26,093 nucleotides of DNA. It comes from a virus. The DNA lies in the IMG/VR virus record IMGVR_UViG_3300004457_000101, positions 1 through 26,093 of that record; one strand, written 5' to 3'. This document shows positions 6,710 through 17,861 of the stretch, piece by piece (the stretch's first letter is position 1; each line of letters opens with the position of its first letter). The position numbers and the translations under genes are program-made. The notes below the pieces were generated by a model that ran no database searches, was not told the DNA's origin, and worked only from the letters and a program-made list of their open reading frames with translations.

Positions 6710-6982
6710 TTAACGCCCTCGAACTGTGATATTTACAGAGTCGCCACTTGTGTAGTTAGAAAGAAAAATGCTTCCTAACTCAGTAGTGGATACAGCTGAT
6801 TTGTTTTTTAAAGCTAATCCAACTGATGCAGTTGTTTGATTTTCTGCTTGGATTGCATCGATATTTTTTAATCCTGTTTTAAACGTCCCAGTCGTTACAC
6901 CTGAGCACACTACATCGAATGTAACATACACTGATCCGCCGCCTGTTGGTTCTTGTCTAACTTTCGTCACTACTAATGCCAT
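6710..6982 (-). CDS. Small beta-rich virion protein, possible head or joining protein
   Basis: A 90-residue protein with a good ribosome site (GGGGAGA 5-6 nt before ATG). It is composed almost wholly of predicted beta strands and Thr/Val/Gly, with no cysteine, signal peptide or enzyme motif. Its start lies inside the last 26 nt of the membrane-protein gene, and it ends 3 nt before the adaptor gene. A small beta protein before the adaptor gene could be a capsid decoration or joining protein, but I recognise no family. Confidence 0.6.
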   Translation of the reverse strand: MALVVTKVRQEPTGGGSVYVTFDVVCSGVTTGTFKTGLKNIDAIQAENQTTASVGLALKNKSAVSTTELGSIFLSNYTSGDSVNITVRGR

Positions 6983-8138
6983 TTTGTATCTCCCCTATAT
7001 CTATTTGTTTATTGTAATTAAGAACTGCACTAAAGGAAATGATAAATAACAAAGAAATTGCAGGAACATGTAAAGGAAAATTGCCCGCAGCATTTATGAG
7101 TATCGCCACCATAATAGACGAAAAAATAGGCTCATGCTTTGCTATATAAGCTATATACGACATAACAGCTGAAAAATAAAACAATCCTATCAACCCAAAT
7201 GCAACGTATAAATCTATGTATTCATTGTGGGCGTATACCCATTTAGGGCTCAACGGCATGAAAGTGTTAAAATTATCAAAGAAATAACCCAAACCCTTAC
7301 CCCAAATAATACTCGGACCACTCATCCATTCCATTGTTTTTGACCAAACCATAAAACGTCTTTGATCATCAAAAAAACCAAGATGATCCCATAAAGTGTA
7401 ACTTAAAACTAAAAAAACAGGCATTGACCATATTAAGATACGTTTTGAAATGTGACCTTTTAAAAATAAATAAGACAATGAACAAAAGCAAAACGCTATC
7501 CAAGTCATCGCGCTGCCCGATAAATAAAGTGCATACAGAATAATAGGTAGGGTATAATTCCACTTTTTACGAAAAAGAGCAGGGGTACTTGCTGCTAAAT
7601 ATGCTCCTGATAGCGTCTGCTGCCCAAGTGATCCCACAACGTTTGCGTAATCAACGCTCGACGGGGTCAATAATTTGCCAGATCCAACTAATATTTTTTG
7701 AAACTGATAGCCTTGCATTTGCAATATGTAAAGATATGGATCAATTCCTTTATTATTTAAAATAAACCATAAAGCCTGAAGCACGCATGAAACAGCAATG
7801 AAATTTAATATTACTTCTTTTTTAAAACAATCCCGAAGTTCACCTAACATTTGCATGCATAATAAAAATGCTACGTTAAGGCATATGAACTGGGTAATAA
7901 CAGCAAGAGAATAGTAATTATGCTGGTTAACAAAAGAGAGAAAAGAAATAACAGCAAAGGTCGGTACGATCGCATTTGTTTTATGTGTTCTTTCTTTAAA
8001 TCCAAATATAATAAAACTTAAAAAGCTGAAGCCTAAAAATAGACCTATCTTGATCAATCGAAGATCAGATACATCACTCATTCTTAAATAAAAAAGGGAG
8101 GTGAGTAACCCCACCCCCCAATAAGTGCAATACAACAT
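6957..8138 (-). CDS. O-antigen polymerase/ligase-like membrane protein (Wzy/WaaL type)
   Basis: A 393-residue protein with about 10-12 hydrophobic membrane spans. After a basic R-R at 260-261 it has a long periplasmic-type loop with GKGLGYF at 280-286 and HNEYID at 304-309, followed by a G-L-I-G-L-F span. This G-x-G-x-G...HNxY arrangement is the signature of O-antigen ligases and Wzy polymerases. Such phage proteins alter host surface polysaccharide and so block re-infection or change serotype. It is unusual here because it lies inside the virion operon: its ATG overlaps the preceding stop (TAATG) and its end overlaps the next gene. It would be made late with capsid proteins. Polymerase versus ligase cannot be told from sequence alone. 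Confidence 0.8.
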   Translation of the reverse strand: MLYCTYWGVGLLTSLFYLRMSDVSDLRLIKIGLFLGFSFLSFIIFGFKERTHKTNAIVPTFAVISFLSFVNQHNYYSLAVITQFICLNVAFLLCMQMLGELRDCFKKEVILNFIAVSCVLQALWFILNNKGIDPYLYILQMQGYQFQKILVGSGKLLTPSSVDYANVVGSLGQQTLSGAYLAASTPALFRKKWNYTLPIILYALYLSGSAMTWIAFCFCSLSYLFLKGHISKRILIWSMPVFLVLSYTLWDHLGFFDDQRRFMVWSKTMEWMSGPSIIWGKGLGYFFDNFNTFMPLSPKWVYAHNEYIDLYVAFGLIGLFYFSAVMSYIAYIAKHEPIFSSIMVAILINAAGNFPLHVPAISLLFIISFSAVLNYNKQIDIGEIQNGISSDES

Positions 8139-15621: not shown

Positions 15622-15670
15622 ACCTGACTAAAGTTTACGTCGAATAACTCTAGAAGTCAGCTTTTGTTTT

Positions 15671-15746
15671 TGGAGCGCTACGGTCGGATTTACACCGCCC
15701 TCTCCTGACCGGAAGTCAGGCACAACGTTATCTTTGCTTGTAGCGC
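15671..15746 (-). tRNA. Unusual tRNA-Gly (anticodon UCC) with altered elbow, encoded CCA
   Basis: Read on the minus strand. Acceptor GCGCTAC pairs perfectly with GTAGCGC, then U73 and an encoded CCA. Anticodon stem CCTGA/TCAGG has a 7-nt loop CTTCCGG, anticodon UCC. D stem GCAA/TTGT has an 8-nt loop AGATAACG. G1:C72, C2:G71, G3:C70, U73, C35 and C36 are all present; these are the known identity elements of bacterial GlyRS. Position 8 is A instead of U. The D loop lacks G18G19. The T loop is TGTAAAT instead of TTCAAAT, and the T stem has a bulged A. Staphylococcal tRNA-Gly(UCC) species used for cell-wall synthesis also show changes at 18/19 and 55. It should be charged with glycine but may bind EF-Tu poorly (inference). 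Confidence 0.8.
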
Positions 15747-15752
15747 ATATAT

Positions 15753-15813
15753 TGGTGGAGGAGCTAGGAGTCGCACCTAGATCGTTGTCAATCCCCACTC
15801 TTGGGGCTCCCCC
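15753..15813 (-). tRNA. Mini tRNA-like RNA without anticodon arm, with G3:U70 alanine signal and encoded CCA
   Basis: Minus strand. GGGGGAG (15813-15807) pairs with CTCCTCC (15763-15757), followed by A73 and an encoded CCA. A perfect T arm, CTAGG-TGCGACT-CCTAG, stacks on it. Only 26 nt lie between the 5' acceptor strand and the T arm, instead of about 41: a CCCC-AAGAGT-GGGG hairpin and 12 further nt. No normal anticodon arm fits. The third acceptor pair is G3:U70 and the discriminator is A73, the signals sufficient for alanyl-tRNA synthetase to charge minihelices. The T loop has G55 as in the adjacent tRNA-Gly. The two RNAs are 6 nt apart, so they are probably co-transcribed. Confidence 0.6.
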
Positions 15814-15882
15814 AATAACCCATTGTTGATCTCTTCTAAACGTCTCACTGTTCTTTGGAAATGGTAAGGTGTATTTTTTCAT

Positions 15883-16494
15883 CTAACTTATAATTATTTT
15901 ACATATTGGGTAAAAATAATAGTTTCTAAATGAATCAATAAAACTACCCTCACCATATAACGCAGCGGCTATCTTGTTTATATCCTTTTCGCCTTTTGGT
16001 CCCTTGCCAAACCTTAAGGCGTTTATAATGTTTTTGTATTCTCCAGCCCTAGTAAGGTAAAAATCATTGCACTTTTCTGTGCCTAAAAACATAAACCCTG
16101 AAGCTTGGTATACTATGCCACAATCCTTTTTACACCCACCGCTATACGTCCATATTACTTTTATATCTTTATAGTGACTTTTTATGGCTGCAATTATTAT
16201 TGAAAGAGTTTTACTTTCAGCGTTCTTGCCCAGTTGGTCAGACAACCATAGCCTTTGCATTTCTATTATTTCCGATTTCTTAACGTTGCCCTTAAACAGG
16301 TTTATCTTAGAATCGGTAGAGCTGCTTTTGCCAAACACCGCAACACCTAAAGCCGCCTTACTGTCTTCGTGTGTAATGCCAAAGTAAAGAAAAGCCCCAG
16401 CCGGGAATGTGCGCATGTAGTGGTTTTTTAAAACCATAGCCTTTGCTTGGTCTCTACTTATGGGGATGACTTTTATTTTGTTTATGTCGAGCAC
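15883..16494 (-). CDS. Mom-like DNA modification protein, second copy
   Basis: A 203-residue protein with the layout of Mom-like GNAT-fold enzymes: NHYM at 24-27, a 'FGI' strand near 38, 'EMQRLWL' at 78-84, 'KNAESK' at 90-95, then 'YSGGCKKDCGIVYQASGF' at 117-134. Mom of phage Mu modifies adenine N6 in phage DNA and protects it from restriction. Compared with its upstream paralog, the Asp after the aromatic strand is replaced (YSGG against FADA) and the Arg of ESR is Lys, so its chemistry may differ. It starts inside the last 13 nt of the first copy. Two tRNA-like RNAs follow directly. Family assignment is by motif pattern. Confidence 0.7.
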   Translation of the reverse strand: MLDINKIKVIPISRDQAKAMVLKNHYMRTFPAGAFLYFGITHEDSKAALGVAVFGKSSSTDSKINLFKGNVKKSEIIEMQRLWLSDQLGKNAESKTLSIIIAAIKSHYKDIKVIWTYSGGCKKDCGIVYQASGFMFLGTEKCNDFYLTRAGEYKNIINALRFGKGPKGEKDINKIAAALYGEGSFIDSFRNYYFYPICKIIIS

Positions 16495-17132
16495 TTTTTT
16501 CCCTTATACATTCTAGCGTTTTCTATTTCTATTTCTTTATAATCTAAAACATCGCAGAGTAGCTCTGCTTTTTTATCTAACAACCAGATATATCTTATTT
16601 GATAGCCATCAAGCGGCTGCCAAACATCCTTATTCCCGAAGTCTGTTATCATGTTATGGTATGCTGTCATCTGCTGCAAAACCTCGCCAGTTTTATTATT
16701 TCTTTTTAGTCCAACGTTTTTTTTAATGTTAGTTAAGTAAGCACCAGTGGCTCTATAGATGGTGCCATCGCCACACTGTGTGGCGTCTGCAAAAGTAACA
16801 ATCCATTTTATATTTGGTGCATGTTTTTTTATAAGTCTAAGACAAACAGCTATAGACCTGCTTTCACTGTTTTTAGGCAGGGCATCTAAAAAAACCATCC
16901 TGTTAAGCTCTAGGAAATCATTCCACTTTGTGTCTTTAACTAAGCCCAACATAAACTCTTTACGCATACAGGGACCAAACTGCAAGACGCCAGAGAGTTG
17001 ATTATTAAAGAATACGCCAAAGTGTATTTGGGAGTTTGGTACAACTTTTTTTGAGTAATGGTTTTTTTTAACAAAGCCATTTGCATCTTTTGCGCTTATG
17101 TTTTTTATTAAAAGATTTTTAACGTCTATCAT
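16482..17132 (-). CDS. Mom-like DNA modification protein, first copy
   Basis: A 216-residue protein matching the Mom family: NHYS at 24-27, 'IHFGVF' near 36-41, 'GVLQFGP' near 48-54, ELNRMVFLD at 75-83, 'KNSESR' at 87-92, 'WIVTFADATQCGDGTIYRAT' at 110-129. The pattern (Y/F)AD-x(4)-G-x-G-x-IYxAxG is the core of these proteins. Mu Mom attaches a glycinamide-like (carbamoylmethyl) group to adenine N6; the donor here is not known. Its start overlaps the ParB-like gene by 14 nt and its end overlaps the second copy by 13 nt, so the three are one translated unit. It probably modifies phage DNA to evade restriction. Confidence 0.78.
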   Translation of the reverse strand: MIDVKNLLIKNISAKDANGFVKKNHYSKKVVPNSQIHFGVFFNNQLSGVLQFGPCMRKEFMLGLVKDTKWNDFLELNRMVFLDALPKNSESRSIAVCLRLIKKHAPNIKWIVTFADATQCGDGTIYRATGAYLTNIKKNVGLKRNNKTGEVLQQMTAYHNMITDFGNKDVWQPLDGYQIRYIWLLDKKAELLCDVLDYKEIEIENARMYKGKKCST

Positions 17133-17724
17133 ATGTCAAATAAGTTTCACATATTCTAGCAATGGCGTTGCCGTTTTTGTTAGAGTTTATATCTTCTAAG
17201 TACGATCCTTTTGTAGACGCCAGCGCTAACGCTTTTTCTATCTCTTCTTTTTGATCCTGTGTAATTGTAAATGTAATCTGACAAATTGGACCCTTATCCC
17301 CTGTGGGCATCTCTGGAAACGGCACCTCTTCTGCTAAGTCTAATTTAAAATCTTTCAATCCCAACATTTCCAAATCAAACTCAGGCCCAAGCTCCGCTAA
17401 TTCTAAATTAATCGCGCTTAAATCTAACGTAGCCCATGTGTCTTTTCCTATGGCGTTGTCTGCTACCATATGAGCATAAAGCTGGTCTTGATCTTTAAAT
17501 TCTTGATATATAACCGGAACTTTTTTAAGTCCTAATTTCTTTGCAGCAAGCAGACGACCGTGACCACAAACAATTAAATCAGTCCCTTTTTCTGCTATGA
17601 TCGGAGTCCGAAAGCCTTGGTACTCAATAATCTTAACTAATCTCTCAATTTGTTCTTCACTGTGTACGTGCATGTTCTTTGGATGCGGTGCAAGCTCGTC
17701 TATCGCTATCATTTCTATTTTCAT
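17119..17724 (-). CDS. ParB/Srx-fold protein linked to the Mom-like genes
   Basis: A 201-residue protein. Residues 1-75 form the ParB N-terminal domain: 'IDELAPHPKN' then a helix, 'GFRTPIIAEKGTDLIVCGHGR' in parts, with the nucleotide-binding motif CGHGRLLAAKKLG at 53-65, followed by 'VPVIYQEF'. The middle (about 80-110) has 'AHMVADNAIGKDTW', common in ParB-type proteins fused to or paired with DNA methyltransferases. There is no DNA-partition helix-turn-helix after it, so plasmid-style partition is unlikely. The ParB/Srx fold includes CTPases and kinases. A role with DNA modification is inferred from the overlap with the first Mom-like gene. Confidence 0.78.
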   Translation of the reverse strand: MKIEMIAIDELAPHPKNMHVHSEEQIERLVKIIEYQGFRTPIIAEKGTDLIVCGHGRLLAAKKLGLKKVPVIYQEFKDQDQLYAHMVADNAIGKDTWATLDLSAINLELAELGPEFDLEMLGLKDFKLDLAEEVPFPEMPTGDKGPICQITFTITQDQKEEIEKALALASTKGSYLEDINSNKNGNAIARICETYLTYDRR

Positions 17725-17775
17725 TAAAAACAGGTTCTTATAAGTTCACACAATATGCAAGAATTAGTGAATGGG

Positions 17776-17858
17776 TCGCTGGACTGGGACTCGAACCCAG
17801 GTCTCTCGTGCTAAGCGTCCTTGCTCACGAGCGTAAAATGCCGCTCTACAATCCAGCG
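17776..17858 (-). tRNA. tRNA-like RNA with a 10-nt enlarged anticodon loop
   Basis: Minus strand. Acceptor CGCTGGA/TCCAGCG, A73, then CCC rather than CCA. U8, A14, G15, G18G19 and A21 are present in the D arm (stem GTAG/TTAC). The T arm is perfect and canonical, CTGGG-TTCGAGT-CCCAG. The anticodon arm is not: stem CTCGTG/CACGAG encloses 15 nt, AGCAAGGACGCTTAG, so the loop is 17 nt with a 5-bp stem instead of 7. Inner AGC/GCT pairing would make a longer bulged hairpin. No anticodon can be assigned. It lies in the gap between the phosphoesterase and ParB-like genes. Confidence 0.72.
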
Positions 17859-17861
17859 AAA

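Follow-up and report, generated by a model that had tools for sequence, protein, structure and literature searches.

What use would a virus have for a tRNA-Gly that keeps the elements needed for charging but has lost contacts used in translation? This question is raised by a stretch of viral DNA of 26,093 nucleotides (IMG/VR record IMGVR_UViG_3300004457_000101, positions 1 to 26,093; hereafter the window), which carries a tRNA-Gly(UCC) of 76 nt, including an encoded CCA end, on the minus strand at 15671..15746. Read from 15746 to 15671, the RNA is GCGCUAC AA GCAA AGAUAACG UUGU G CCUGA CUUCCGG UCAGG AGAG GGCGG UGUAAAU CCGACC GUAGCGC U CCA. Structurally, it forms a 7-bp acceptor stem (GCGCUAC/GUAGCGC), a 4-bp D stem, a 5-bp anticodon stem with the loop CUUCCGG, and a T arm (GGCGG-UGUAAAU-CCGACC) with one bulged A between positions 63 and 64. 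A first-pass annotation had listed G1:C72, C2:G71, G3:C70, U73, C35 and C36 as intact, and had noted the replacement of U8, G18, G19, U55 and C56 together with the bulged A of the T stem; all of these assignments are borne out by the sequence, in which U8 is changed to A, G18G19 to AA, U55 to G and C56 to U. Among the elongator features U8, G18G19, U33, T54U55C56 and an intact T stem, the window copy keeps only U33 and U54. The T-stem bulge is located inside the 49-65/51-63 region contacted by EF-Tu, and would be expected to reduce EF-Tu binding.

The minimum-energy fold (RNAfold) is the same cloverleaf, including the T-stem bulge, at -27.5 kcal/mol (z -2.21). Equally good folds were obtained for 7 of 200 shuffled sequences, and therefore the fold by itself is weak evidence for this RNA. 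The R1 covariance model matches it with 84.3 bits, a score from an alignment that includes the window sequence itself. The RNA is missed by ARAGORN and has no match in Rfam at E values up to 1. Comparison with relatives, as had been proposed in the first-pass annotation, settles at the level of sequence that this is a real RNA. Across 70 distinct relatives, 98.1% of the expected base-pair cells are standard pairs, and 348 two-sided changes are observed compared to 107 in shuffles (0/500), while slid controls collapse.

The genomic context of the RNA is distinctive. The order in the window is a ParB gene, two mom genes, the RNAs, a putative small terminase gene, whose identity is probable from its position, and a large terminase gene. 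The ParB N-terminal domain protein (17119..17724, minus strand; PF02195) is a conserved partner upstream of mom. Mom2 (16482..17132, minus strand) is a Mom-family DNA modification protein with a GNAT-like fold (PF25680, E 5.8e-47), and Mom1 (15883..16494, minus strand; PF25680, E 2e-34, supported by alignment with relatives) is a second Mom-family paralog with a GGCKxDCG motif; both are far above the curated cut-off of PF25680. The sequence of Mom2 matches that of the solved Mu Mom structure (8bv8) with E 1.6e-21, and its predicted model (pLDDT 89) has Mu Mom as its best fold match, followed by GNAT acetyltransferases. The GGCKxDCG motif of Mom1 occupies the place of an Asp in Mu Mom and Mom2. 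Both window proteins are thus Mom-family members with a predicted activity in adenine hypermodification.

Mom1 in the window carries an in-frame TAG about 25 amino acids before the C terminus seen in relatives. After this codon (15880-15885, minus strand), the missing C-terminal part of the relatives (KKYTLPFPKNSETFRRDQQW) continues in frame. The ORF list and the alignment place this continuation in an open frame (15628..15882, minus strand) that then runs through both RNAs; the beginning of this frame is homologous to the C-terminal end of Mom1, and what follows is probably no gene of its own. The TAG could be a nonsense change, a read-through site or a sequencing error, and Mom1 may be impaired here. 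A search with the window Mom1 as query found no relatives. Elsewhere in the window, an O-antigen ligase-like membrane protein (6957-8138, minus strand) is encoded among virion structural genes (Wzy_C, E 2e-6, below the curated cut-off). Upstream of ParB, a third tRNA-like element (17772-17859, minus strand; tRNA covariance match of 37 bits) has U8, G18G19 and the elbow UUCGAGU intact. In place of an anticodon arm with a 7-nt loop it has a long hairpin (CUCGUGAGC AAGGAC GCUUAGCACGAG), and a proline identity would be compatible with its C1:G72 and A73. As its elbow is intact and no relatives of it were found, this element was not grouped with the Mom-linked RNAs.

To define the distribution of the RNA, a sequence pattern covering the T arm and UCC was scanned over 2.9 million viral contigs; a structure scan with loose rules gave mostly chance matches, and sequence patterns and the covariance model were used instead. 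The scan yielded at least 80 loci. Among the matches listed, a Mom ORF lies directly at the tRNA on the same strand in 76 of 80, with the other four comprising three loci with a truncated or disrupted mom and one without mom. The Mom profile used for this assignment was built from the window, Salinibacter phage B2_17 and loci fetched by Mom similarity, not from those 80, and representatives were verified as Mom by Pfam. Across 84,980 genomes of bacteria and archaea the pattern occurs in only three places, two of them with mom. In 61 of 72 loci, mom is immediately preceded by a ParB-like ORF. In total, the pairing of tRNA and mom is found in the window and about a hundred distinct related phage loci, which are related by descent, such that these linkage counts are not independent events. 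The Gly RNA is upstream of mom in two loci (L090, L202) and on the opposite strand in four (L366, L372, L378, L381), which argues that it acts as a trans RNA. The Mom-linked Gly RNA at L202 (295-367) is of another kind, with U8, UUCAAGU and the variable region UUGU; it is just upstream of a divergent Mom, and a tmRNA-like mini-RNA lies about 4.4 kb from it. We found no description of Mom-linked tRNAs in the open-licence literature.

Because the first pattern imposed the anticodon and the T stem, the analysis was repeated starting from mom. The R1 covariance model was run over loci fetched with Mom proteins, with neither feature imposed, and gave 75 distinct RNAs; one Mom query (L066) bore a tRNA-encoded tail, which is a mild bias. 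In these RNAs, G1:C72 and C2:G71 are present in 75/75, G3:C70 in 69/75 (absent in six), U73 in 73/75 (A73 in the other two), and the CC of the anticodon hairpin (C35C36) in 74-75/75. This is the bacterial Gly identity set as published, in which U73 also shields Gly-tRNA from D-aminoacyl-tRNA deacylase (PMC9976931). The features used in translation are poorly kept: U33 in 26/55, U8 in 18/54, the D-loop GG in 19/54 and UUC at 54-56 in 16/75. Position 34 is A in 15/55, the D arm is wholly absent in 21/75, and anticodon loops differ in size and sequence. The argument made from the window copy, that random decay would not spare the synthetase elements, holds for these 75 RNAs, and decay was rejected because the GlyRS elements are near-invariant while the translation features drift or vanish. 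The accompanying logic, whereby charging is kept, translation contacts are lost and glycine would be diverted, likewise gains support from sequence comparison across the whole family.

Two cultured phages carry related RNAs. A blast search with this part of the window picked up a single cultured relative, in Salinibacter phage B2_17. The RNA there is annotated simply as tRNA-Gly, likewise follows ParB and an unannotated Mom gene, and has A8 and the T-stem bulge in common with the window copy. In Psychrobacter phage Y8A, two D-armless Gly mini-RNAs of 65-66 nt are arranged in tandem between mom and terminase (L349, 4662-4799). A second annotated Mom gene is found elsewhere in the Y8A genome (L393, 39393-40157). 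The R1 model detects only mom-linked RNAs in the two records, and ARAGORN finds no ordinary tRNAs in either. The paper describing Y8A reported no tRNA genes by tRNAscan-SE (PMC10434257). Since ARAGORN and Rfam fail to detect these RNAs and none was reported for Y8A, many more may be unannotated.

A second RNA in the window, identified by structure search and fold and by its equivalents beside Mom1, is a mini tRNA-Ala-like RNA of 61 nt including CCA (15753..15813, minus strand) that lies between Mom1 and the tRNA-Gly. It has an acceptor stem GGGGGAG/CUCCUCC with G3:U70, A73, and a T arm with the loop UGCGACU, and it has no anticodon loop. Equivalents of 49-74 nt (to A73) are found beside Mom1-type genes in 32 of 33 loci, all with G3:U70 and A73. 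The 14 distinct examples tabulated all have G1:C72, G2:C71, G3:U70 and A73, which is the complete AlaRS identity set, while covariation is seen at pairs 5-7 and across most of the T stem; charging with alanine is predicted. In the 240 Mom loci that lack the Mom1 motif, such mini-RNAs occur only in loci with a cut or variant Mom1, the one other match being an ordinary tRNA-Ala in a tRNA cluster. The gene order is Mom1-Ala-Mom2-Gly in two loci (L005, L008) and Mom2-Mom1-Ala-Gly in the window and the record of L085, while the Ala and Gly RNAs are together on the opposite strand in L372 and L381. The presence of a mini-RNA with Mom1 in 32 of 33 loci, in variable order, indicates that each Mom type travels with its own RNA, and the tracking of the second paralog by the mini-RNA suggests a dedicated alanine donor.

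Identity of the window mini-RNA as a tmRNA was rejected, as its 61 nt form a single uninterrupted RNA, ARAGORN calls no tmRNA and Rfam has no match. Most other matches to the mini-Ala pattern are due to chance or are tmRNA-like mini-RNAs for which no partner gene could be identified, and were set aside. Stand-alone RNAs of 65-67 nt at 13 loci on phage contigs (L151, L171, L178, L190, L204, L205, L207, L219, L225, L230, L231, L265 and L266) resemble the tRNA-like domain of tmRNA (GGGG..AUCGAC..UUCAA..CACCUCCACCA, with G3:U70) and have no tag frame. The flanking genes checked there mostly have no Pfam family match.

In phage Mu, Mom converts adenine to carbamoylmethyl (glycinamide) adenine. PDB entry 8bv8 names the Mu protein a methylcarbamoylase, and a 2025 meeting report states in one sentence that Mu Mom hypermodification depends on tRNA-Gly for glycyl transfer (PMC12908700). 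A tRNA-Gly beside mom therefore has an obvious user, and its likely function is that of a private, translation-exempt glycine donor for Mom. The adjoining mom genes thus point to a destination for the glycine that the first-pass annotation had not named, namely putative DNA hypermodification rather than peptidoglycan. We consider it likely that the window tRNA-Gly is a dedicated amino-acid donor for the phage Mom-family enzyme. This model is based on the RNA structures, the selective conservation of identity elements and the tight linkage to mom, and from these we infer charging, escape from EF-Tu, use by these Mom proteins and the alanine chemistry.

In the proposed mechanism, host GlyRS would charge the tRNA-Gly via G1:C72, C2:G71, G3:C70, U73 and C35C36, and the altered T stem and elbow (in relatives also the lost U33 and D arm) would keep the Gly-tRNA from EF-Tu and the ribosome. 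Mom would then move the glycyl group to the adenine N6 of phage DNA, and an internal rearrangement probably would follow to give the Mu-type carbamoylmethyl (glycinamide) adenine, a modification that would block host nucleases. The mini-RNA would be the matching alanine donor for Mom1, presumably charged by AlaRS via G3:U70 and A73. With somewhat less assurance, we favor the broader proposal that each Mom paralog has its own private translation-exempt carrier, with tRNA-Gly serving Mom2 and the Ala minihelix serving Mom1, such that two amino acids would be put on viral DNA as adducts of the glycinamide and alaninamide types. The R1 model detects no such RNA in numerous Mom lineages, among them Mu, JD024, PAN70 and 15 distant viral loci, which indicates that a linked RNA is not universally required and that the host pool can suffice.

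The relation of the RNA to the mom reading frame allows two other explanations. Of 79 distinct loci (L029-L147), 65 have a mom frame that continues through the tRNA, so that cutting by RNase P would take away the stop codon and a transcript may give either Mom or tRNA. Perhaps, then, the RNA is a cis element at the 3ˊ end of the mom mRNA that is cut by RNase P and controls mom expression. However, this is unlikely given the loci in which the RNA is upstream of mom or on the opposite strand, and processing would not need C35C36 and U73; a cis role may exist as a secondary one. A frame that is open through the RNA in most loci is also what a conserved Mom coding tail that merely resembles a tRNA would give. 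Stops or other frames within the RNA in at least 10 loci, and the inverted and upstream copies, are not explained by protein coding, and the two-sided base-pair changes far above shuffles refute this reading, to which we assign essentially no weight.

Two further explanations accept the RNA as a trans-acting tRNA. The complete cloverleaf, UCC anticodon and CCA end, and the annotation of the B2_17 copy simply as tRNA-Gly, would fit an ordinary phage tRNA that supplements host translation and has undergone some mutational drift. This is very improbable, because U33, U8, the elbow, N34 and the D arm are unconserved while the GlyRS elements are kept, because such tRNAs would not track mom, and because the Y8A and B2_17 isolate records lack ordinary tRNAs by ARAGORN. 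Phage tRNAs are known to counter host anticodon nucleases, and the RNA could instead be a decoy for tRNA-directed host defences or toxins, including anticodon nucleases and GNAT toxins that act on Gly-tRNA. TacT reads U73 and G71, both of which are kept here (PMC9976931), but a decoy leaves unexplained the mom linkage and the pairing of the Ala mini-RNA with Mom1, and the anticodon loops vary in size and sequence; we regard it as a shade more improbable still.

If the donor model is correct, viruses encode aminoacyl-tRNAs that serve DNA modification and nothing else, and these would be natural RNAs in which evolution has separated charging from decoding. The Ala mini-RNAs would make this a tRNA-dependent DNA modification system using natural minihelix RNAs, and they would be natural counterparts of the laboratory minihelices at the centre of thinking about how the genetic code arose. 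Alanine minihelices are reportedly the work of Francklyn and Schimmel. Such minihelices and the tRNA-like domain of tmRNA likewise present G3:U70 and A73 on an acceptor/T-arm helix without an anticodon, whereas the Mom1 mini-RNAs are encoded as separate RNAs where a mom paralog ends and have no tag-peptide frame.

The non-proteinogenic tRNA-Gly species of S. aureus, which are donors for the FemXAB peptidoglycan bridge, likewise have altered G18G19 and EF-Tu contact pairs, and their Gly-tRNA can leave translation (PMC4052509, PMC9976931). This parallel had been drawn in the first-pass annotation, and it stands for the G18G19 changes and the weak EF-Tu pairs (PMC4052509), while its U55 part found no confirmation. 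Compared to the S. aureus RNAs, those linked to Mom are phage-encoded, are joined to a DNA modification gene, have a T-stem bulge rather than weak pairs, and are often reduced to D-armless mini-RNAs with U33 lost. TacT-type toxins likewise have a GNAT fold and select Gly-tRNA by U73 and G71 (PMC9976931), but they acetylate the amino acid and thereby block translation, whereas Mom would, in the present proposal, transfer it to DNA. A further comparison is phage Mu Mom (methylcarbamoylase, 8bv8), which belongs to the same family (PF25680) and for which glycyl transfer from tRNA-Gly to adenine has been reported (PMC12908700). With no such RNA detected by R1, Mu would use the host pool, whereas the window phage appears to encode a private donor.
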